Assembly: GCA_019800895.1 (NCBI GenBank)
Contig: JAHVKF010000002.1
Location: 868,001 to 932,000, forward strand
Reading direction: 5' to 3'
Length of the DNA: 64,000 bases
Source of the DNA: Halomonas denitrificans
Lineage (GTDB): Bacteria; Pseudomonadota; Gammaproteobacteria; Xanthomonadales; Wenzhouxiangellaceae
Made by a program: the position numbers and the translations under genes. Under the pieces are notes generated by a model. It made no database searches. It had not been told where the DNA came from and saw nothing but the letters and a program-made list of their open reading frames with translations. Positions 49,238 to 63,018 of this stretch are shown one piece after another (within the stretch, counting starts at the first letter, position 1; every line of letters starts with the position of its first letter).

Positions 49238-51475
49238 ATGCGCAACTTCACCCAATCCCTTGCCGCCCTCGCGGTGGCCGCGTCGCTGGCCCTGCCGGCC
49301 ACCAACGCAGCGGCCGAGATCGTGCGGGACAACCAGTTCTGGTGGCCGGATCAGCTCGATCTGAGCCCGCTTCGCGACCAGGACGCTTCGTCGAACCCCT
49401 ACGACGCCGACTTCGACTACGCGTCCGAATTCGCAACGCTCGACCTCGACGAAGTCAAGGCAGACATCCGCGCCGTGCTGACCGATTCGCAGGATTGGTG
49501 GCCGGCCGACTGGGGCCACTACGGTCCCTTCTTCATCCGCATGGCCTGGCACTCGGCCGGCACCTACCGGGTGATCGACGGCCGCGGCGGTGCCGGCGGC
49601 GGTCAGCTGCGCTTCGACCCGCAGAACAGCTGGCCCGACAACGCCAACCTCGACAAGGCGCGTCGGCTCCTGTGGCCGGTCAAGCAGAAGTACGGCCGCA
49701 AGCTGTCCTGGGCCGACCTGATGGTCCTGACCGGCAACGTGTCGATGGAAGACATGGGCTTCGAGACCTTCGGCTTCGCCGGCGGGCGGGAAGACGACTG
49801 GGAGCCGGACTTCGTCTACTGGGGCCCGGAAGAGGCCATGCTGGAAGCCGAGCGTCGCGACGACGACGGGCTCCTGCGCGGCCCCGTCGCGGCCACCCAG
49901 ATGGGCCTGATCTACGTGAACTCCGCCGGTCCGGGCGGTGTGCCCGATCCGGAAGCAGCCGCAGTGGCCATCCGCGAGAGCTTCGGCCGCATGGCGATGG
50001 ACGATGAAGAAACGCTGGCGCTGATCGCCGGAGGCCACACCTTCGGCAAGGTGCACGGCGCGCGCGACCCGGTCGACTGCGTCGGACCCGAACCGGCCGC
50101 CGCCGGCCTCGAGGAGCAGGGCCTGGGCTGGAAGAACGAGTGCGGCACCGGCAACGGGGCCGACACCATCACCTCCGGCCACGAGGGCGCATGGACCCAG
50201 CAGCCGACGCGCTGGACCATGCTGTACCTGACCAACCTGCTCGGCTTCGAATGGGAGCTGTCGGAGAGCCCGACCGGCGCCCCGCAGTGGGTGGCCAAGG
50301 ACGGTGCGCTCGACGGGTCCGTGCCGGAAGTGCAGGCAGGCGCCGGCCGCACGGCGCCGATCATGCTGACCACGGACATCGCCCTGAAGCGCGACCCGGC
50401 CTACCGCGAGATCGCCGAGCGCTTCCTGAACAACCCGGACGAGTTCGAGGATGCGTTCGCGCGTGCGTGGTTCAAGCTGACCCACCGAGACATGGGCCCG
50501 CGCGCTCGCTACGTCGGCGACGAAGTGCCGATCGAAGTGCTGAGCTGGCAGGACCCGGTGCCCGCGTGGGACGGTGACGTCGTCAGCGACACCCAGGTCG
50601 CCGAGCTGAAGGAGACGATCCTCGACTCTGGTCTCACGGTGCCGGAGCTCGTCCGCACGGCCTGGGCCTCGGCCTCGACCTACCGGGCCAGCGACATGCG
50701 CGGCGGCGCAAACGGCGCGCGCATCCGCCTCGAGCCGCAGATCGGCTGGGAGGTCAACGACCCGGACGAGCTGACCCGCGTGCTGGGCGTGCTGGAAGAC
50801 ATCCAGCTGGACTTCAACGAGGGCGGCGGTGCCGACATCTCGATGGCCGACCTGATCGTCCTCGGCGGTGCCGCAGCGATCGAGAAGGCCGCGGCCGATG
50901 CCGGTCACGACGTCGATGTGCCCTTCGTGCCGGGTCGCGGCGACGCCACGCAGGAGATGACCGAAGTCGACTCCTTCGCCTGGCTGGAGCCGCACGCCGA
51001 TGCGTTCCGCAACTACTACAGCGACGAGCACTACTTCGCGCCGTTGCCGGCGATGGTCGACAAGGCCGCGCTCCTCGACCTCACCGTGCCGGAAATGACG
51101 GCGCTGATCGGCGGCTTGCGTGCCCTGGACGCGAACCGCGCCGGTGCCGAGCATGGCGTGTTCACCGATACGCCGGGCCAGCTGACCAACGATTTCTTCG
51201 TCAACGTGCTGAGCATGGACTACGCCTGGGCGAAGTCCGACGACATGGACGGCGTCTACGTCGGCCGCGATCGCGACTCGGGCGAAGTCCTCTGGACCGC
51301 CACGCCGATCGACCTGGCCTTCGGTTCGAATTCGGAGCTGCGGGCCGTGTCCGAGGCCTATGCGTCGGCCGATGGTGAAGCCGAGTTCGTTGCCGACTTC
51401 ATCGCCGCCTGGGTCAAGGTGATGAACGCCGACCGCTTCGATATCGATGAGGAAGCCATGATGGCGAGCAACTGA
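49238..51475 (+). CDS. Second catalase-peroxidase, exported (KatP/KatG2-like)
   Basis: A 745-residue catalase-peroxidase with a signal peptide ([21 protein letters not shown], cleavage near 26), so it works in the periplasm. R101, W104 and H105 (distal), H267 (proximal) and W104-Y226-M252 (adduct) are all intact. Compared with the first katG, it has a shorter arm before the core and a distinct insert [14 protein letters not shown] 49238 has GGAGA 7 bases upstream. Exported KatGs (KatP, KatY, KatA2-type) are known from pathogens and from Legionella and Caulobacter relatives. Confidence 0.95.
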
Positions 51476-53283: not shown

Positions 53284-55689
53284 ATGAACTATCGCTTCGG
53301 GCCGTTCGAACTGGATGACTCGACCGGGGCCCTGACCGGGCCCGATGGCCCGATTCCGCTGCGCCGGCAGACCTTCCGCCTGCTCGAGGTCCTGCTTCGA
53401 CATGCGCCCGCGCTGGTCGATCGCGACACCCTGCTCGACGAGGCCTGGGGGCGGACCGCGCTGTCGGCGAACGTGCTCCCGCAGGCGGTCAGCGAGCTGC
53501 GCCAGGCGCTGGGCGATTCCGCGGCCGATCCGAAGGTGATCGAGACGCTGCACCGTCGCGGGTACCGGATATTGCCCGAGGTGGAGCGCGTCGAGCCCGG
53601 GCCGGCCGGGAACGCGGCCGCATCGGCGCCGGCTCCACCGCGGTCCGGCCGGATCGGGCCGACTACGATCGCGGTGGTCGTCATAGCCGCCGTCGTTCCG
53701 CTGGCGCTGGTGCTGGCCTGGTGGTGGCAGGGCGCCGATCGGCGCTGGGTCGAGAACGAGGTGCTCCCCGCCGTCGAGGCCGAGATCGAAACCGACGTGA
53801 CCGCCGCCTGGCGTCGCGTGCGCGCCGCGCGCGAACGCGTGCCCGACGATCCGCGTCTCGAGCAACTCTGGCTGGACCTCTCCCTGCCCGTGTCGCTGAC
53901 CAGCGAGCCCGAGGGTGCGCTGGTCGAGGTGGCGGGCTACGGCTCGGGACCTGCGGACTGGGTCGCGCTCGGAACCACGCCGCTCGAGGAGGTCCGCCTG
54001 CCGCTGGCCTCGCTGCGATTCCGGGTCTCGAAGGCCGGCTACGCGACGCGGGTCGTCGCGCCCAACGTGCTGCCGTTCGCCGAGCCGTTCCGGCTGCATG
54101 CCGAGGACGAAGCGCCCGAAGGCATGGTCTACGTCTCACCCGGTCCGGTTCGCTACACCAGCGAACGGCGTGAGGTGCCGGGGTTCTGGATCGACCGGTT
54201 CGAAGTCACCAACGCCGAGTATCTCGAGTTCATCGAGGACGGCGGCTATGCCGATCCTGCGCTGTGGCCCGAGCGGGTCGAGATCGACGGGGAACCACTC
54301 GACCGCGACGAACTGCTCGCACGACTGGTCGACGGCACGGGCATGCAGGGCCCGTCGACCTGGGCGCTCGGCCGCTACCCGGATGGCCGCGACGACCACC
54401 CGGTGGACGGAGTCAGCTGGTACGAGGCGGCCGCCTACGCGGCGTGGGCCGGCAAGCAGTTGCCGACCGCGTTCCACTGGTACCGAGCGTCCGGACTCGG
54501 CAGTCCGCAGCCGGCGTTGTTCTCCGACGTCCTGGTGGCCAGCAACTTCGGCGACGACGGCACGCGACCGGTCGGTGCGACGGGCGGTCTCGGGCCCTAC
54601 GGGACCTACGACATGGCCGGCAACGTTCGCGAATGGAGCCGGACCACGGCCGGGACGCGGCGCTACGCGATGGGGGCGGCCTGGAACGAGAACAGCTACC
54701 AGTTCGTCGACTGGCAGGTGTTCGAGCCACATGACCGCAGCGCAGGTGCCGGCTTCCGCCTGATCGAGGTCGAGGCACCCGTCGAGGCGCCCTTGCTGAC
54801 CGACGTGCAGCTCCTTCCGACGCCGAACGAGAAACCGGTCGACGACGCGACCTTCGAGATCTACGCACGGCTCTACGACTACGACGACACCCCGCTGAAC
54901 GCCGAGGTCGTGGACCTCGACGACCGCCACTCCGACTGGCGGCGGGAGCGGATCGAGTTCGACGCGGCCTACGGCGGCGAGCGGGTCATCCTGGAACTGT
55001 TCCTTCCGGCCGACGTCGAGCCCCCGTACCAGACCGTGGTCCATTTCCCGGGCGGCGACGCGCGCCTGCTCGGCAACATCGACGAGGCCGGCCTGCTGCA
55101 CGTCGAGCCGTTCCTTCGAACCGGACGGGCCGTCGCCTACCCCATCTACCAGGGCACCTTCGAGCGCAGTTCTGCGCCGCCCTCCGGCCCGCTCGGCCTG
55201 CGCGACCAGGTGATCGAACAGGTCAAGGATGTCCGGCGTACGATCGACTACCTTGCTACGCGGGAGGACATCGACCTGCAGCGGCTGGCGTTCCACGCCG
55301 TCAGCTACGGCGCGAGTCGATCGCCGTTCGTCCTGGCCATCGAGCCCCGGCTGCGGATGGGCATGATCGTATCGACCGGCCTGTCGCCCTCCACGCTGCT
55401 TCCGCCGGAAATCCACCAGATCGACTACCTGGACCGCGTCACCCAGCCGGTGCTGTTCGTGACCGGGCGCAACGACCTGACCATGTCCTACGACGAGTTC
55501 CAGCGGCCCTTCTTCGAGGCCCTGGCCACGCCCGCCTCCGACAAGCGCCACGTCGCGCTCGATTCCGGCCACCTGCCGCCGGGCTACGACGCGCTCTCGC
55601 GGCACCTGGTGCAGTGGATCGACCGCTGGTTCGGCCCGGTCGCCGACGGCCGCTATGCCCAGGTGGTGCCGGCCTCGCCGAACCCGTGA
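53284..55689 (+). CDS. wHTH-TM-PEGA-FGE-alpha/beta hydrolase fusion protein
   Basis: An 801-residue inner-membrane protein of rare architecture. Residues 1-100 are an OmpR/CadC-type winged helix (FRLLEVLLRHAPALVDRDTLLDEAW, VIETLHRRGYRILPEV). One helix (126-148) crosses the membrane. A PEGA-like region (about 195-270) and an FGE/SUMF1 domain (about 275-500: FWIDRFEVTNAEYLEF, PVDGVSWYEAAAYAAW, YDMAGNVREWS, GAGFRLIE) follow, then an alpha/beta hydrolase (about 530-790) with S674 in AVSYGAS and H763. The first Gly of the nucleophile motif is replaced by Ala or Val, so activity is uncertain. Topology puts the DNA-binding part in the cytoplasm and the rest in the periplasm. Confidence 0.85.
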   Translation: MNYRFGPFELDDSTGALTGPDGPIPLRRQTFRLLEVLLRHAPALVDRDTLLDEAWGRTALSANVLPQAVSELRQALGDSAADPKVIETLHRRGYRILPEVERVEPGPAGNAAASAPAPPRSGRIGPTTIAVVVIAAVVPLALVLAWWWQGADRRWVENEVLPAVEAEIETDVTAAWRRVRAARERVPDDPRLEQLWLDLSLPVSLTSEPEGALVEVAGYGSGPADWVALGTTPLEEVRLPLASLRFRVSKAGYATRVVAPNVLPFAEPFRLHAEDEAPEGMVYVSPGPVRYTSERREVPGFWIDRFEVTNAEYLEFIEDGGYADPALWPERVEIDGEPLDRDELLARLVDGTGMQGPSTWALGRYPDGRDDHPVDGVSWYEAAAYAAWAGKQLPTAFHWYRASGLGSPQPALFSDVLVASNFGDDGTRPVGATGGLGPYGTYDMAGNVREWSRTTAGTRRYAMGAAWNENSYQFVDWQVFEPHDRSAGAGFRLIEVEAPVEAPLLTDVQLLPTPNEKPVDDATFEIYARLYDYDDTPLNAEVVDLDDRHSDWRRERIEFDAAYGGERVILELFLPADVEPPYQTVVHFPGGDARLLGNIDEAGLLHVEPFLRTGRAVAYPIYQGTFERSSAPPSGPLGLRDQVIEQVKDVRRTIDYLATREDIDLQRLAFHAVSYGASRSPFVLAIEPRLRMGMIVSTGLSPSTLLPPEIHQIDYLDRVTQPVLFVTGRNDLTMSYDEFQRPFFEALATPASDKRHVALDSGHLPPGYDALSRHLVQWIDRWFGPVADGRYAQVVPASPNP

Positions 55690-55728
55690 CCCTCGCCAAG
55701 CCCATGATTTGATGAATATTTGAGGAGT

Positions 55729-55748
55729 TCTTGAGGCAAGTCTCAAGA
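55729..55748. promoter_or_regulatory. Inverted repeat in an A+T-rich patch before the secreted protein gene
   Basis: TCTTGAG (55729-55735) and CTCAAGA (55742-55748) form a 7-bp perfect dyad with a 6-bp loop. Just upstream lies TGATTTGATGAATATTTGAGG, markedly A+T-rich here. It could be an operator or a terminator for the preceding gene; there is no T-run, so operator is the better guess. Confidence 0.35.
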
Positions 55749-55835
55749 CTCGAACGTGCTCGAGATCCATGCTTTTCGTCAAGCGGACGGCACCCCGCCG
55801 GCCGCAGGTCCAGACGATACCGAGGAGCATGAATC

Positions 55836-56489
55836 ATGAACGCACGAAACCACACCCGCCGCCGTTTCCTTCGACCCACTTCCGCCGCCGCTGCCTGTCT
55901 CGTGGTCGGCGCAAGTCTCTTCCTCGCCGCCGGCCTGGCCCAGGCCCAGGCCCATCACGGCGGAGGTCCGCCGGAGCGCATCTGCATCCTGCTCGGGATG
56001 CTCGGTACGGCGCCGCCGGCCTGCACCGGCGATGGGCACGGCGTCATCGATCCCGAAGTCGAAGCCCAGCTCGACGCGCTGACCTTGTCGGTCCTGCCCT
56101 TCTACAACTACGACGTCGCCGTCTCGGCGGGCTGGGACACGATCCTGGGCGAATGCGTGGAAAGCCCGATGGGCGGCATGGGCTACCACGTGCACAACAT
56201 GGACCAGCTGATGAACGGCCACCTGAACCTGCTGCGTCCGGAAGTCCTGCTGTTCTCGCCGAACGAGGACGGCTCGATGCAGTTCCACGGCGTCGAATAC
56301 ATCATTCCCGCCGACCTCTGGAACGAGCCGAGCCCGCCGGAGTTCCTCGGCCAGGAGCTGCACTTCAACCCCAACGTTCCGCCGAACGGCATCTGGGCCC
56401 TGCACGTGTGGGTCGGCACGGAAAATCCGACCGGAATCTTCGCGGACTTCAACCCGGAGGTGAACTGCGACTTCGCGCTCGAGGACTGA
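55836..56489 (+). CDS. Secreted protein of unknown function with twin-arginine-like signal
   Basis: A 217-residue protein. The N-terminus has RRRFLRP before a hydrophobic stretch (AAAACLVVGASLFLAAGLAQAQ), suggesting Tat export. Mature features are CILLGMLGTAPPACTG and CVESPMGGMGYHVHNMDQLM, several His residues, and a C-terminal GIWALHVWVGTENPTGIFADFNPEVNCDF. The Cys and His content hints at metal or haem binding, but I recognise no family. A hairpin follows the stop. Confidence 0.7.
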   Translation: MNARNHTRRRFLRPTSAAAACLVVGASLFLAAGLAQAQAHHGGGPPERICILLGMLGTAPPACTGDGHGVIDPEVEAQLDALTLSVLPFYNYDVAVSAGWDTILGECVESPMGGMGYHVHNMDQLMNGHLNLLRPEVLLFSPNEDGSMQFHGVEYIIPADLWNEPSPPEFLGQELHFNPNVPPNGIWALHVWVGTENPTGIFADFNPEVNCDFALED

Positions 56490-56652: not shown

Positions 56653-57252
56653 ATGAGAATCGATCCCCACCGAATCCGCACGCTGCGCCAGGCGCGTCAC
56701 TGGTCGCAGGAACAACTGGCGGATGCCTGCGGCGTGAACCTGCGGACCATCCAGCGCCTGGAATCGGGCGCCCGGGCATCGACCGAGACCGTACGCGCGC
56801 TCGCCGCGGTGTTCGAGGTGGACGTGGACTCGCTTCGGGTGAACGCCGGTGCCGCGCCGTCAGGTTCGTCGGAGCCGGACCGGCGAGCACTCGCGGCCAT
56901 CCGTGCGGAGCTGCTGCGCTTCGACGACTTCGCCGGACGAAGCGGCCGCCACGACTACTGGTGGTTCATGCTGGCCGTGGTCCTGGTGCTGGCGGCCGGT
57001 GCAATGCTTCACCCGATCCTGCATGGCCTGCTCGCGCTGGTCCTGTTGGTGCCGCTCCTGGCGGCCGGTACGCGCCGCCTGCGCGATGCCGGCGAGAGCC
57101 CCTGGTGGCAGCTGTTCTGGCTGGTGCCGTTCGGAGTGTTCCTGGTGTTCTGGCTGCAGACCCGGCCGTCGGTGGCGCCGGTGGACGATGAGCCCGGGTC
57201 GAGACCCGGCGCGTCGCCGACGGCGTCGCCGGACACGAACGCCACCGGATGA
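56653..57252 (+). CDS. HTH regulator fused to DUF805 membrane domain
   Basis: A 199-residue fusion. Residues 1-60 are an XRE-type helix-turn-helix (IRTLRQARHWSQEQLADACGVNLRTIQRLESGARAS). Residues about 85-170 match DUF805 (FAGRSGRHDYWWFMLAVVLVLAA, LLAAGTRRLRDAGESPWWQLFWLVP) with three membrane helices. A Pro/Ala/Ser tail ends it. The layout implies a membrane-bound DNA-binding protein. Its TGA overlaps the aceK ATG (57249-57252), so aceK is translationally coupled. Confidence 0.8.
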   Translation: MRIDPHRIRTLRQARHWSQEQLADACGVNLRTIQRLESGARASTETVRALAAVFEVDVDSLRVNAGAAPSGSSEPDRRALAAIRAELLRFDDFAGRSGRHDYWWFMLAVVLVLAAGAMLHPILHGLLALVLLVPLLAAGTRRLRDAGESPWWQLFWLVPFGVFLVFWLQTRPSVAPVDDEPGSRPGASPTASPDTNATG

Positions 57253-58980: not shown

Positions 58981-59355
58981 GGGACTAGGGGGAAGGGACT
59001 AGGGGCTAGTGACCCCCGCCTCCGGGGGCGCCGGGTGTAAACGTTCCTGGCCCTCAGTCCTGAGCCTCGGTTCGGGCCGAGATCTCGAAGTCGATGACTG
59101 GATAGACCGGGGCGGAAACGTTGTCCGAGGCGATCACCGGCGCCAGATGGCTGGGCTCCGGCCTGAGCGTCATCACTGTGGGTACTGTGGATCGCAGCGT
59201 CGTAGCCCGGGTAAGCGTAGCGCACCCGGGGTTCGTGGCTGGGCCGGTGGCGAAATAGCCCCGGGTGCGCTTGCGCTTACCCGGTCTACGGTACTAGGGG
59301 TCAGGGACCAGTCAAGCCCTCGTCCGTGCACAGGTTCTACCAGCCCCTAGTCCCT
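58981..59355. repeat. Nested repeats between aceK and crtY
   Basis: This 373-bp space (58974-59346) has no gene. AGGGACTAGGGGCT (58994-59007) has an exact inverted copy AGCCCCTAGTCCCT at 59342-59355, which runs into the end of crtY. Inside, GTAGCCCGGGTA-type arms at 59202-59231 and 59259-59288 form a second copy of the palindrome seen at 46125-46203. A GGACTAGGG unit is also repeated directly at 58982-59003. Confidence 0.8.
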
Positions 59356-60525
59356 GGCCCCATCCCCCTCCTTTTCGAGAAACGCCTCCTCGTCGATGAA
59401 CGTGAACGACCGGAAGAACGGCACCGGCGGCTTGCCGACCACCAGGCGGGCCTTGTCGCGCCAGCGCAGGTCGGCGGCGTAGAAGTGTTCGATCAGCGAA
59501 CCGGACAGGCCGTAGAAGCGCTGCATGACGATATAGCGTTTCTCGGATTCCCCGGCGCGGAACAGCAGGCGGTTGAGCATCCGGAAGAAGCCGGTGGACT
59601 CGAAGAAGCGGCGCGCATGATCGCGGGTCAAAGCCGCGAGTTCGGCGCCGTTCATCGGCCACCGGGAGGAGATCGCGTCGGCCAGGGTCAGGGCCTGCGG
59701 CAGCGAGTAGCCGGTCGTCGGGTGGAACAGGGCGGCCCTCAGGCCGCTGCGGGCGACCGGATCGTCGACCGGCCAGAAGGCGTCGAAGTCGCCGGCCAGC
59801 AGGATCGGCAGCACGCCGCGCTCCTCGCGCAGGGTCTGCGCGATGTCCCAGCCGTTCGCCGCGGCGTAGTCGTCGATGGCCGCCGACAGCTGCGAATCGT
59901 CGAGTTCGGCACCGTCGCTGTAGCGCGTGTCCTCGATCAACAGCGTGGTCTCGTCGAAGGGCAGCAGGTAGATGAAGCGATAACCGTCGGCCTGGGAGAC
60001 TTCGGCATCCATGATCACCGGAACATCCACGCCGTGCGGCGCGGCGGTCCGGACCTCGCGGCCGAAGAACTTCTGGAAGCCGAGAACCAGGCCCTCGGAG
60101 CTGGACGGTCCTCTGCCGTCGATCACGGCGCTGCCTTCGATGCGGCCCCGATCCGTGTCGATGAAATCCGGGCCGATAAGCATGGCCCGCGTGTCGGTGT
60201 GGATCTCGACGGAAGCCTCGTGCATGTGGTCGCGCAGCGCGTCGGAGGTGATGCTGAGGTAGGCGGCGTCCAGGCGGCGACGGTATTTCGGGAAGCGCAC
60301 CTCCTGCGCCGGCCAGCGGTGCTGGACCACCGGCGCCAGGACCTCGTGCTGGTCCGGGGACAGGTCGCCGGCATGGAACGACCAGGTGTGGTTGCCGCAC
60401 AGCGCCGGACCCGCTTCGACGATCGTGATTCGTGCGTCCGGATGCGCGGCGCGGACTCGCAGCGCGATCAGGCAGTTGGCCAGGCCGCCGCCGGCCAGCA
60501 GCAGGTGATTCGGGGAGGATGCCAT
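59347..60525 (-). CDS. crtY: Lycopene beta-cyclase CrtY
   Basis: A 392-residue flavin-dependent cyclase of the Gram-negative CrtY family. The N-terminal LLLAGGGLANCLIALR binds the nucleotide, CGNHTWSFH is the CrtY signature, and the centre carries YRFIYLLPFDETTLLIEDTRYSD and the end FFESTGFFRMLNRLLFRAG, MQRFYGLSGSLIEHFYA. It converts lycopene or similar ends to beta-rings. ATG 60525 gives the normal start; the longer frame adds only non-family residues. It is the last gene of a crtD-crtC-crtY series. Confidence 0.92.
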   Translation of the reverse strand: MASSPNHLLLAGGGLANCLIALRVRAAHPDARITIVEAGPALCGNHTWSFHAGDLSPDQHEVLAPVVQHRWPAQEVRFPKYRRRLDAAYLSITSDALRDHMHEASVEIHTDTRAMLIGPDFIDTDRGRIEGSAVIDGRGPSSSEGLVLGFQKFFGREVRTAAPHGVDVPVIMDAEVSQADGYRFIYLLPFDETTLLIEDTRYSDGAELDDSQLSAAIDDYAAANGWDIAQTLREERGVLPILLAGDFDAFWPVDDPVARSGLRAALFHPTTGYSLPQALTLADAISSRWPMNGAELAALTRDHARRFFESTGFFRMLNRLLFRAGESEKRYIVMQRFYGLSGSLIEHFYAADLRWRDKARLVVGKPPVPFFRSFTFIDEEAFLEKEGDGARD

Positions 60526-60562
60526 CGGCCTATTGTGAAGCAACGAAGTGCCGGCGGCAGCG

Positions 60563-61489
60563 TCAACGGACGCGTCGCGGCATCCGGAACGGCAGCATCT
60601 GCTGGACCCAGTAGTTGGTGAATCGGGGCAGCACCAGGCTCTCATGGACCGCGGTGACGGGCTCGCCGAGCAGCCGGGCGCCGACCCGCGAACGGGTATA
60701 GAACGGCGTGTCCTCCCAGACCGCTTCGATGCGCGCCCGTCCGTCCTCCGAGCGCGTCGGCCGGGCCACGCGCCAGCGGCTGCGCGGCAGGTCCACGGGG
60801 GCGGGGGAGGGCAGGTCGTGGAGGCGGCCGTCGCGGTCGAAATGCAGCGCGACGGAACCGTGCTGCCCGTCGCGCTGGCGCGTGTCGTAGAGCACGACCG
60901 GCCCCCGTGCGGTCGACGCGCGGAGCCAGTACCAGCTGTGGAAGCAGCGCTCCAGCGCTTCGACGCCGCGGTTGTGGTCGAGGTAGCCCGCGCCCGACCA
61001 GCGGGTCGCGGGCGACGCCAGGTCGACTTCGACCCGGGCGGCCGGCCAGATCGGCGTCCAGCGGTGTCGGCCGTGCGGATCGAGGTCGATGCTGCGGTCG
61101 TTGCCGACGGCGGGATGGACGCGAATCCGGCCGCGCACCCGCCGGGGCAGGGGCGCGGTCCATTCGTCGAGGTCGATGTCCAGCGATTCCCCGGTCCAGT
61201 GCAGTCCGCTCGGTCCGATCGTGAGCGTCGCGGCTTCGCGGACCAGCGACGAACGATTCCGTTCGGTCATGGTCCAGCGCGTCCGCGGCCCGTAGAGCGC
61301 GACGTTGATCGCGCAGTGGTCGAGCGGATCGGCCTCGCCGTGCGCGCGCGCCCAGAAGTAGTACGGCGAGAAGACGCTGCCGATGAATGCGATCAGGGTC
61401 AGTCCGTACCGGCGGTCGTCGCTGATCGCGTCGACGTACCACCACGCGTAGCCGCCGTCGGCAACGGGACCGTCGAAGGTCGGGATCAT
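60563..61489 (-). CDS. crtC: Carotenoid 1,2-hydratase CrtC
   Basis: A 308-residue hydratase that adds water to the psi-end group of acyclic carotenoids such as neurosporene or lycopene. Diagnostic: DGGYAWWYVDAISDDRRYGLTLIAFIGSVFSPYYFWAR, CAINVALYGPRTRWTMTER and GYLDHNRGVEALE. ATG 61489 overlaps the crtD stop (ATGA), so both are translated together. The pairing with CrtD supports acyclic xanthophyll formation. Confidence 0.92.
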   Translation of the reverse strand: MIPTFDGPVADGGYAWWYVDAISDDRRYGLTLIAFIGSVFSPYYFWARAHGEADPLDHCAINVALYGPRTRWTMTERNRSSLVREAATLTIGPSGLHWTGESLDIDLDEWTAPLPRRVRGRIRVHPAVGNDRSIDLDPHGRHRWTPIWPAARVEVDLASPATRWSGAGYLDHNRGVEALERCFHSWYWLRASTARGPVVLYDTRQRDGQHGSVALHFDRDGRLHDLPSPAPVDLPRSRWRVARPTRSEDGRARIEAVWEDTPFYTRSRVGARLLGEPVTAVHESLVLPRFTNYWVQQMLPFRMPRRVR

Positions 61490-63018
61490 GATGCGGCGCC
61501 CCGGGCGGCGGGCGTGCGCTCCGGCGCCCCGAGTCCGAGGTCGGCTGCCGCAGCGCGGGCGGCCAGGCGACCCGACAAGGCGACCATCGGAACGCCGGCG
61601 CCCGGATGAACACTGCCGCCGGCCAGGTACAGGCCGGCCATTCCGCTGACCGCGCCGGGCCGGGTGAACGACGAACGCCAGCCGTGGGCAGCGGAGCCGT
61701 AGAGCGCGCCGCCCGTGCCCGGGAAGCGCGCTTCGAAATCCGCCGGCGTGGTCGCGCGCGAGCAGCCGGCTTCGACGTTGGCTTCGAGGCCGCACGCGCG
61801 CAGCAGGTCGAACGCGGCGGCCTCGCTGGCGGCGATGGCGGACGCCTCGAACGGCTCTCGATCGCCGGTGGCCGGGGCGTTGGTGATCAGGAACAGCCGC
61901 TCTGGACCGTTCGGCGGGGACTGGCCCGTGGCGCGGTCCTGGGCGCAGACGTAGACCGCGGGCCTCGCGGGCAGGCGGTGGTGGTCGAAGATGTCCTCGA
62001 ACTCTCGCGGGTAGTCGGCCGGGAAGAACACGTTGTGGTGGGCCAGCTCGAAGCCGGCCGGTCGGGCCAGCACCGACCAGGTCAGCGCCGAAAGCGAACG
62101 GTCCGGCGTGGCCACACCGGGCACCGCGTCGGCCGCGGCCGCGCCCAGCAGGCCCCGCGCGATGGCGGCCCGGTCGCAGTTGGCGATCACCGCGTCGGTG
62201 GGCACCCGCTCACCACTGTCCAGGACGACGCCGCAGGCGCGTTCGCGGTCGACGAGCACCTCGGCCACCGGCGTGTCGTAGGCGATGGTGCCGCCGCGCT
62301 GGCGGACGAGCTCGGCGAGGGCTTCGGCCAGCCGCTGCATGCCGCCCTCGATCTGCCAGACGCCGAGCTGCTCGGCATGCGCGATGAGCATCAGCGTGGC
62401 AGGAGCCTGTAGCGGGCTGGAGCCGCAATAGGTGGCGTAGCGCGCGAACAGTGCGCGCAGGCGCGGGTCGCGGAAACTCGCGCCCAGGTGGCGCCAGAGG
62501 CTGTCGAAGGGCCGGATGCGCCAGAGGTCGATCAGGCCGCGCAGACCGGACGCCGCAACCAGGGAAAGCGGTCCCGGTCGCTGGCTGCGCATGAAGGGTT
62601 CGTACAGCGTGTCGAAGACCTCGCGCGCCCGGCGGCAGAAGGCGCGGTAGCGCGCCGCCTCGGCTTCGCCGGCGAAGTCGGCGACGGCGGCGAACGATCG
62701 GTCCGGGTCGGCGAACAGGTCCAGCCGCGAACCATCGGGCCAGGCATGGCGGGCGAGCAGGTCCGCGCGACGGATCGCGACGTGCTCGTCGAGCGCGCTG
62801 CCCGCGTCGCGGAAGAGTTCCTCGAAGATCCAGGCCATCGTGAACACGGTGGGGCCGGAGTCGATGGGCCGGCCGTCGATCTCGATCTCGCGCATCTTCC
62901 CGCCCGGTGCGCCCGCGCGCTCGAACACCGTCACGCGCAGCCCCCGGCGCGCCAGGTCCACGGCGGCGACCAGCCCGCCGATGCCGGCCCCGATGACGAC
63001 CGCGTGCCTCGCGCTCAC
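61486..63018 (-). CDS. crtD: Carotenoid 3,4-desaturase CrtD
   Basis: A 510-residue flavoprotein of the phytoene desaturase family. The dinucleotide fold is VVIGAGIGGLVAAVDLARRGL (7-27), the substrate part follows, and GLYLAGGSVHPGAGVPMVALSGRLAA is the C-terminal flavin motif shared with CrtI. Its linkage to CrtC and to the methyltransferase CrtF points to 1-hydroxycarotenoid 3,4-desaturase (CrtD) rather than CrtI. It heads the minus-strand operon and diverges from crtF. Confidence 0.88.
   Translation of the reverse strand: MSARHAVVIGAGIGGLVAAVDLARRGLRVTVFERAGAPGGKMREIEIDGRPIDSGPTVFTMAWIFEELFRDAGSALDEHVAIRRADLLARHAWPDGSRLDLFADPDRSFAAVADFAGEAEAARYRAFCRRAREVFDTLYEPFMRSQRPGPLSLVAASGLRGLIDLWRIRPFDSLWRHLGASFRDPRLRALFARYATYCGSSPLQAPATLMLIAHAEQLGVWQIEGGMQRLAEALAELVRQRGGTIAYDTPVAEVLVDRERACGVVLDSGERVPTDAVIANCDRAAIARGLLGAAAADAVPGVATPDRSLSALTWSVLARPAGFELAHHNVFFPADYPREFEDIFDHHRLPARPAVYVCAQDRATGQSPPNGPERLFLITNAPATGDREPFEASAIAASEAAAFDLLRACGLEANVEAGCSRATTPADFEARFPGTGGALYGSAAHGWRSSFTRPGAVSGMAGLYLAGGSVHPGAGVPMVALSGRLAARAAAADLGLGAPERTPAARGAAS

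Follow-up and report, generated by a model that had tools for sequence, protein, structure and literature searches.

A predicted one-component membrane circuit linking an FGE-like and hydrolase ectodomain to a four-repeat promoter element and a secreted-protein gene in Xanthomonadales

Comparative analysis of a 64,000-nucleotide stretch of the Halomonas denitrificans genome (GenBank assembly GCA_019800895.1, contig JAHVKF010000002.1, positions 868,001 to 932,000 of the forward strand; hereafter the window) indicates that a membrane-tethered transcription factor encoded at 53284..55689 (+) is likely to form a dedicated one-component membrane circuit, in which this regulator would activate one main gene, that of a secreted protein (hereafter the partner; 55836..56489, +), through a site made of four 11-bp direct repeats (55709..55750, +). 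The kind of protein is already known, namely the one-component transmembrane transcription regulators; what is new is the circuit, with a predicted target and a predicted DNA site. Membrane-bound transcription factors are common and many lack a known signal or target, and here sequence comparison alone yields a nearly complete small circuit consisting of a sensor with a testable catalytic triad, a membrane link, a DNA site and a main target.

The regulator is a single unbroken frame of 801 codons plus stop that coincides exactly with 53284-55689 (+) and that combines, according to the reading frame, Pfam and a structural model, a winged helix-turn-helix (wHTH), a transmembrane helix, a helical linker, a PEGA-like region, a domain related to formylglycine-generating enzyme (FGE) and an alpha/beta hydrolase. 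The DNA-binding domain, Trans_reg_C (residues 23-96; 53350..53571, +), is above the Pfam cut-off (3.2e-16), matches the DNA-binding domains of CadC, OmpR and PhoB in sequence searches of the PDB and is predicted to be cytoplasmic. It is followed by one strong hydrophobic stretch at about residues 127-149 (53662..53730, +), with a Kyte-Doolittle value of 2.7 against 1.1 for the next best elsewhere, which the model renders as a helix over residues 127-170. The FGE/SUMF1-like domain (residues 291-457; 54154..54654, +) likewise passes the Pfam cut-off (FGE-sulfatase, 9.5e-29), with PDB sequence matches to EgtB and FGE/SUMF1. An earlier note on this DNA had proposed a CadC-like winged helix joined through a single transmembrane helix to PEGA, FGE and hydrolase domains, and the winged helix, the membrane helix and the FGE-like domain are confirmed by these searches and the hydrophobicity scan. 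The PEGA assignment stands in part only: a beta region with a PEGA-like match is present at residues 203-255 (53890..54048, +), but the match (E 0.045; 14.1 bits versus 20.8) is below the Pfam cut-off. Pfam detects no protein kinase domain in the regulator. Trans_reg_C and a hydrophobic helix in the same chain agree with the definition of a transmembrane transcription regulator in the available part of a survey of such proteins (PMC10269533), which asks for a chain with both a DNA-binding domain and one or more transmembrane regions. The AlphaFold model, built from 16 orthologues, has a mean predicted local distance difference test score (pLDDT) of 76 and shows the long helix from residue 127 and the beta region; confidence is mostly above 75 in the alpha/beta hydrolase and in places below 50 in the FGE-like part.

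The C-terminal alpha/beta hydrolase domain (about residues 520-790; 54841..55653, +) has a fold resembling that of CE7/acetyl xylan esterases, as judged from Pfam, alignments and Foldseek. The Pfam match of the window protein itself, to a PETase-like hydrolase at residues 661-799, is below the cut-off (E 0.0011), but the hydrolase identity anticipated in the earlier note is backed by diverged relatives, five of six of which exceed the Pfam cut-off for Peptidase_S9, DLH or PETase, and by Foldseek, whose best matches to the model are CE7 acetyl xylan esterases and cephalosporin C deacetylases (E ~1e-12 to 1e-10, target-normalised TM-score ~0.65, identity ~14%). The CE7 family profile, AXE1, has no match in the window protein up to E 1 and matches one diverged relative, below the cut-off only. 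The predicted nucleophile S674 (codon 55303..55305, +), the predicted triad acid D731 (55474..55476, +) and the predicted triad histidine H763 (55570..55572, +) are invariant in 16/16 orthologues and equally in all 16 members of a mixed set comprising 10 orthologues and six diverged relatives with wHTH, TIR or two-transmembrane N-termini; for S674 and H763 this is the conservation that the earlier note had singled out for checking. The position two before S674 is Gly in 13 of the 16 orthologues and Ala in the other three, the window protein included. The domain thus retains the residues of an active enzyme, and hydrolase activity is predicted from them.

FGE enzymes use an active-site cysteine pair. 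The window regulator has no cysteine in 801 residues, as the earlier note had suspected for the FGE part, and in the FGE-like part of the orthologues there is only one frequent Cys column, filled in 11/16, and no conserved one; therefore an identity as an FGE enzyme is improbable for this domain, and we dismiss it for a cysteine-free protein. Its invariant residues across the 16 orthologues are H398, W399, N447, E450, W451 and R492, and it is probably a binding fold. FGE-type domains appear as C-type-lectin-fold modules of conflict systems in the available part of one study (PMC7159879).

Among 61 genomes (that of H. denitrificans and 60 relatives), 16 encode a homologue covering most of the regulator. 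These orthologues, 51-74% identical to the window protein, carry the whole architecture and fall in two families of the order, and among named records the nearest homologue comes from Wenzhouxiangella sp. XN79A (72%). Full-length single-frame homologues in other genomes rule out a frameshift fusion of separate genes, an artefact that the earlier note had named as a danger; only the G031 copy lies in two frames, and it was kept split in the analysis. A hydrolase profile search of 250 genomes of the order found matches in 28, with orthologues in 20 (at least 436 bits), diverged relatives in six (200-269 bits) and short weak matches only in three; G764 has both an orthologue and a diverged relative. 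For each genome, the searches of the order scored the 10 or 12 best candidates.

Comparison of gene neighborhoods, all against all over 19 loci, identified a single neighbor that recurs in different genera and families and encodes a secreted protein (~170-260 aa), a candidate for the regulated neighbors that the earlier note had recommended inspecting. In the window this is the 217-aa partner, with a signal peptide recognized by eye; the entry of the earlier note names neither this gene nor its promoter. It adjoins the regulator in 11/19 loci, to which a separate partner search added a twelfth, G031. Partner relatives are 46-68% identical to the window copy, and the family has no Pfam, NCBIfam or PDB match. 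H118, E154, H190, W192 and C211 are invariant in 10 aligned sequences; that H118, E154 and H190 make up a metal site is only a guess. We claim no fold for the partner because its model has a pLDDT of 64 and no structural match below E 0.7. Remote relatives (27-36%) occur on plasmids of Gemmatirosa, Haloarcula, Ensifer, Neorhizobium and Limimaricola (five of 72,556 records), one of these plasmids being archaeal. A small gene follows the remote homologues of Neorhizobium (L156:3929-4705) and Gemmatirosa (L155), annotated as DUF4242 in the former and present as a similar-looking unannotated frame in the latter.

The two genes co-occur. We counted hydrolase matches of at least 436 bits as regulator orthologues and matches of at least 256 bits as partners, thereby excluding the diverged ectodomains (at most 269 bits) as well as three weaker relatives of the partner, in G702, in G728 and as a second copy in G053; the regulator and partner samples of 250 genomes each, both drawn evenly from the order with shared handles, were taken as identical. 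In the set of 61, 14 genomes have both genes, two the regulator only (G023, G036), one the partner only (G027) and 44 neither (Fisher p 8e-11); in the order sample the corresponding numbers are 17, three (G023, G036, G777), two (G027, G760) and 228 (p 2e-21), and within the family of H. denitrificans they are 12, two, one and 22 (p 6e-7), all p values ignoring relatedness. Where both are present (17 genomes), they are grouped in 12, as seven divergent and five codirectional pairs, one of the latter with an intervening gene, and separate in G006, G014, G018, G025 and G764. Two further types of secreted genes recur in these loci. An A7-type gene is divergent in four loci (G014, G018, G777 and G764), with no promoter-motif match nearby, and an A8-type gene adjoins the regulator in G006, G023 and G025 and lies between regulator and partner in G011.

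The partner promoters share a conserved element. For all 19 partner genes in the order sample, a single 36-bp motif per sequence was fitted to the upstream region (at most 300 bp, counted from start codons that we chose at the signal peptide), and its first base falls at -116 to -142 from the start codon in all 19. The log-likelihood is 396.5, compared with 100-113 in 12 shuffled sets that approximately preserve dinucleotides, and mean conservation per column is 0.87 bits inside the element versus 0.15 in the upstream flank. A is present at columns -3, 8, 19 and 30 in 19/19 promoters, giving an exact 11-bp period with four units of the type TTGAGGnnTTT; in the window the invariant A residues are at 55712, 55723, 55734 and 55745. 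At the expected positions of a -10 hexamer, 17 bp past the hexamer of the last unit, A (column 54) occurs in 19/19 and T (column 58) in 18/19 promoters, and the window hexamer is CATGCT (55768..55773, +).

Held-out tests support the element. A model trained on the 12 promoters adjoining a regulator placed its top match at -120 to -145 (22-42 bits) in each of the seven other partner loci, where the partner lies elsewhere in the genome or no regulator was detected; the element thus extends to seven partner promoters that are not beside a regulator. With the window promoter excluded from training, its site scored 35.9 bits versus 9.5 for the best unrelated place on both strands of the 64 kb; across models it is the sole site in the window (36-45 bits, next unrelated match 5-9.5 bits), and a simulated megabase reached a maximum of 11.3 bits on one strand. 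The weaker partner relatives (G702, G728 and the second G053 copy) have no element and no match of 7 bits or more. Among loci that lack a divergent partner, 12/12 have no site above 1 bit in the 400 bp upstream of the regulator (best 0.2 bits), and in all six divergent loci examined the site found upstream of the regulator is the partner's; this comparison covers regulators other than those of G023 (5' end cut) and G031 (split). Since the regulator has no upstream site of its own, the arrow would run from regulator to partner.

At the genome scale, 10 whole genomes scanned with a degenerate pattern yielded 25 matches, among which nine partner promoters have matrix scores of 40-50 bits, one G018 match 38, one G016 match 21 and the other 14 at most 15; the partner promoter of G018 was missed by the pattern. 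In the genome of H. denitrificans the pattern matches twice, once in the partner promoter and once at a position that the matrix does not support.

In PhoB activation the pho box takes the place of the -35. The pho box consists of two 11-bp direct repeats in the available parts of the relevant studies (PMC2648988, PMC3978041), and the partner promoters, with 11-bp direct repeats upstream of a -10-like hexamer, show this type of site. The winged-helix family of the regulator, the head-to-tail arrangement of the repeats and the position of the last repeat in the -35 slot therefore fit activation of the PhoB kind. PhoB and OmpR share with the present system both the winged-helix family and, through the pho box, the 11-bp direct repeats; unlike them, the regulator has no receiver domain in its chain, and the signal would have to arrive through the membrane tether.

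Thus, we propose that one helix keeps the winged helix in the cytoplasm and tethers it to a periplasmic sensor composed of the cysteine-free FGE-like binding fold and the serine hydrolase with its intact Ser-Asp-His triad. Contact of this sensor with its ligand or substrate would lead several winged helices to align head to tail on the four repeats, which occupy the -35 region, and to recruit RNA polymerase to a weak promoter, turning on one main gene, that of the small secreted protein. The four repeats, which we infer to be bound by this regulator, suggest two or more regulator dimers. The suggestion of direct signaling to DNA in the earlier note now has a predicted DNA site and a predicted target gene in its favor, binding and activation by the regulator being predictions; its suggestion that a periplasmic substrate would be sensed by binding or cleavage is a conjecture. 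It is also conceivable, although we consider it unlikely, that the regulator represses the partner gene, since a repressor too could act at the -35 slot that the site overlaps. However, the last repeat, and no consensus -35 hexamer, fills this slot, at a constant distance of 17 bp from the -10-like hexamer, as would suit an activator standing in for the -35.

With respect to the nature of the signal, the simplest assumption is that the hydrolase senses an acyl or ester compound, with the FGE-like domain perhaps as a second binding surface; catalysis, binding or feedback from the partner protein are all conceivable. A bolder version, which we put forward tentatively, is that catalysis itself is the signal, in the form of acylation by, or turnover of, a specific ester or acyl substrate, relayed through one helix to the row of winged helices; the secreted target would then handle the same compound, and the FGE-hydrolase ectodomain would be a portable enzyme-sensor cassette used on transcription-factor, TIR and two-transmembrane heads. 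Six diverged proteins preserve the order from transmembrane helix to hydrolase at 35-39% identity and differ in their N-termini. The TIR domain is a head familiar from defense and signaling, and in G631 (L097:385-2961) the ectodomain is found behind a TIR_2 domain (1.6e-15). Four proteins (L098:5438-7819, L099:925-3252, L100:2215-4512 and L102:5557-8385) have two transmembrane stretches by eye, L102 with an additional stretch ahead of the ectodomain that received no Pfam call, and in L101 the N-terminus is a diverged winged helix. Pfam places PEGA below the cut-off in three of the six and does not find it in the other three, so that none of the seven proteins, that of the window included, passes. 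No kinase is present in the six according to Pfam, no search starting from kinase domains having been made, and none of the ectodomain matches inspected is a kinase fusion of the kind mentioned in the earlier note, although distant ones could escape the strict class and phylum thresholds. None of the five genomes of the order sample that have TIR or two-transmembrane ectodomains has a partner match. As side observations, the open reading frame adjoining the TIR_2 fusion resembles a TonB receptor by eye, and L098 and L099 share an N-terminus of the type RRKVFRVA, with a similar one in L102.

The invariance of the triad across wHTH, TIR and two-transmembrane N-termini (16/16), together with the CE7-like fold, would also suit an ectodomain that is a working periplasmic esterase while the head answers something else, for example binding by the FGE-like domain, so that signaling is independent of catalysis. 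We regard this separation of functions as improbable. The same ectodomain appears on several N-terminal modules, as expected of a sensor, and the wHTH lineage retains a co-inherited target, although both observations are compatible with catalysis-free signaling too.

Several observations weigh against the proposal of a dedicated one-gene circuit. The relatedness of the genomes inflates the co-occurrence p values, the order-wide counts rest on the best 10 or 12 candidates per genome, and the structural model is of moderate confidence, especially in the FGE domain. CadC is modelled head to head on its site in the available part of one study (PMC5430869), unlike the row of four head-to-tail repeats predicted here. 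Regulator and partner also occur singly: G023, 96% complete, has the regulator and no detected partner (the other regulator-only genomes, G036 and G777, are incomplete assemblies, at 73% and 65%), and G027 (90% complete) and G760 (80%) have the partner and its site and no full-length regulator match. Moreover, the degenerate pattern at two mismatches recovers only 14/19 known sites and gave 12 matches in the reversed control versus 25; therefore, one site per genome must be read as a minimum, and we place the weight on the matrix scores.

Additional sites belong on the same side. A strong one in G018 (L139; G018:C17:1109966; 38 bits) has its first base 65 bp before an open reading frame for a 148-aa small membrane protein without a Pfam match. 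In G011 an A8-type secreted gene divergent from the partner (L024:8355-9118) is preceded by one of 22-25 bits, the first base of the element being ~158 bp before the likely start, and L029 has a very weak match that begins 128 bp ahead of its A8 frame (11.6 bits). In G036, where no partner was detected, a site of 19-22 bits lies ~90 bp before a secreted-looking frame that adjoins the regulator and has a sub-threshold Trigger_C match (L028:5004-5692). The second site of G032 (L042:15848-15883, - strand, 15-19 bits), ~3 kb downstream of the partner, precedes a frame that resembles short-chain dehydrogenases by eye. Given the extra sites in G011, G018, G032 and G036, the regulon need not be one gene and can be larger.

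The presence in G027 of a wHTH-TPR protein with a DNA-binding domain 64% identical to that of the regulator, and of similar proteins in G006 (68%) and G025 (55%), also counts against the proposal and implies that in certain genomes the site might be recognized by a paralogue. The general form of this explanation, that a different regulator such as the wHTH-TPR paralogue binds the element and the FGE-hydrolase protein is merely co-inherited with the partner, can draw on the recognition helix, most of which is shared by the paralogues of G006, G025, G027 and G029, and on the partner and site in G027, yet it seems to us the least probable of the alternatives because G029 has the paralogue and no partner match, the next best winged helix of the H. 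denitrificans genome is just 43% identical to that of the regulator, the co-occurrence of the partner tracks the FGE-hydrolase regulator, and the site sits between regulator and partner in seven divergent pairs.

Comparison with known systems places the circuit among ToxR-CadC-like receptors, which in the available parts of the sources (PMC10269533, PMC5430869) also have a cytoplasmic winged helix, one transmembrane helix and a periplasmic C-terminal sensor; unlike theirs, the sensor here consists of an FGE-like domain and a serine hydrolase with an intact triad. The main text of the survey (PMC10269533) contains none of the words sulfatase, hydrolase and PEGA, and we found no paper on this architecture in the open-access literature, as judged by titles and the beginnings of abstracts. 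A widespread and already characterized architecture would have spoken against the idea of the earlier note; no complete ectodomain was found outside the order in searches of 274 and 369 genomes of the class and 299 and 398 of the phylum, in which the best three to eight candidates per genome were scored at strict thresholds. The 274-genome search gave nine matches beyond the genome of H. denitrificans, all to the FGE part only, and plasmids gave no ectodomain match at 1e-10. The regulator has in common with CE7 acetyl xylan esterases and cephalosporin C deacetylases the fold, as their best match, and the Ser-Asp-His triad, and differs from them in its low identity, its membrane tether and its fusion to a transcription factor. 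With formylglycine-generating enzyme and EgtB it shares the FGE-sulfatase domain, without being an FGE by mechanism. Among acyl-serine sensors of the BlaR1/MecR1 type, BlaR1 signals via a protease to a separate repressor. A periplasmic serine enzyme as the possible receiver is common to those systems and the present one, in which, unlike theirs, the DNA-binding domain is in the same chain; we claim no kinship. The circuit offers a clean model in which to study whether an enzyme domain might work directly as a transmembrane gene switch, and it provides a first functional handle on a secreted protein family without a Pfam match.

Elsewhere in the window, 49238-51475 encodes a peroxidase-family, catalase-peroxidase-like protein with an apparent signal peptide, which may be periplasmic. 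Two genes downstream of the regulator and just before aceK, 56653-57252 encodes an HTH_3 domain fused to DUF805, which we take to be a membrane domain, making this a second candidate for a membrane-bound regulator. The - strand carries pigment genes at 59347-63018, a lycopene cyclase and a gene resembling flavin amine oxidases and phytoene desaturases.

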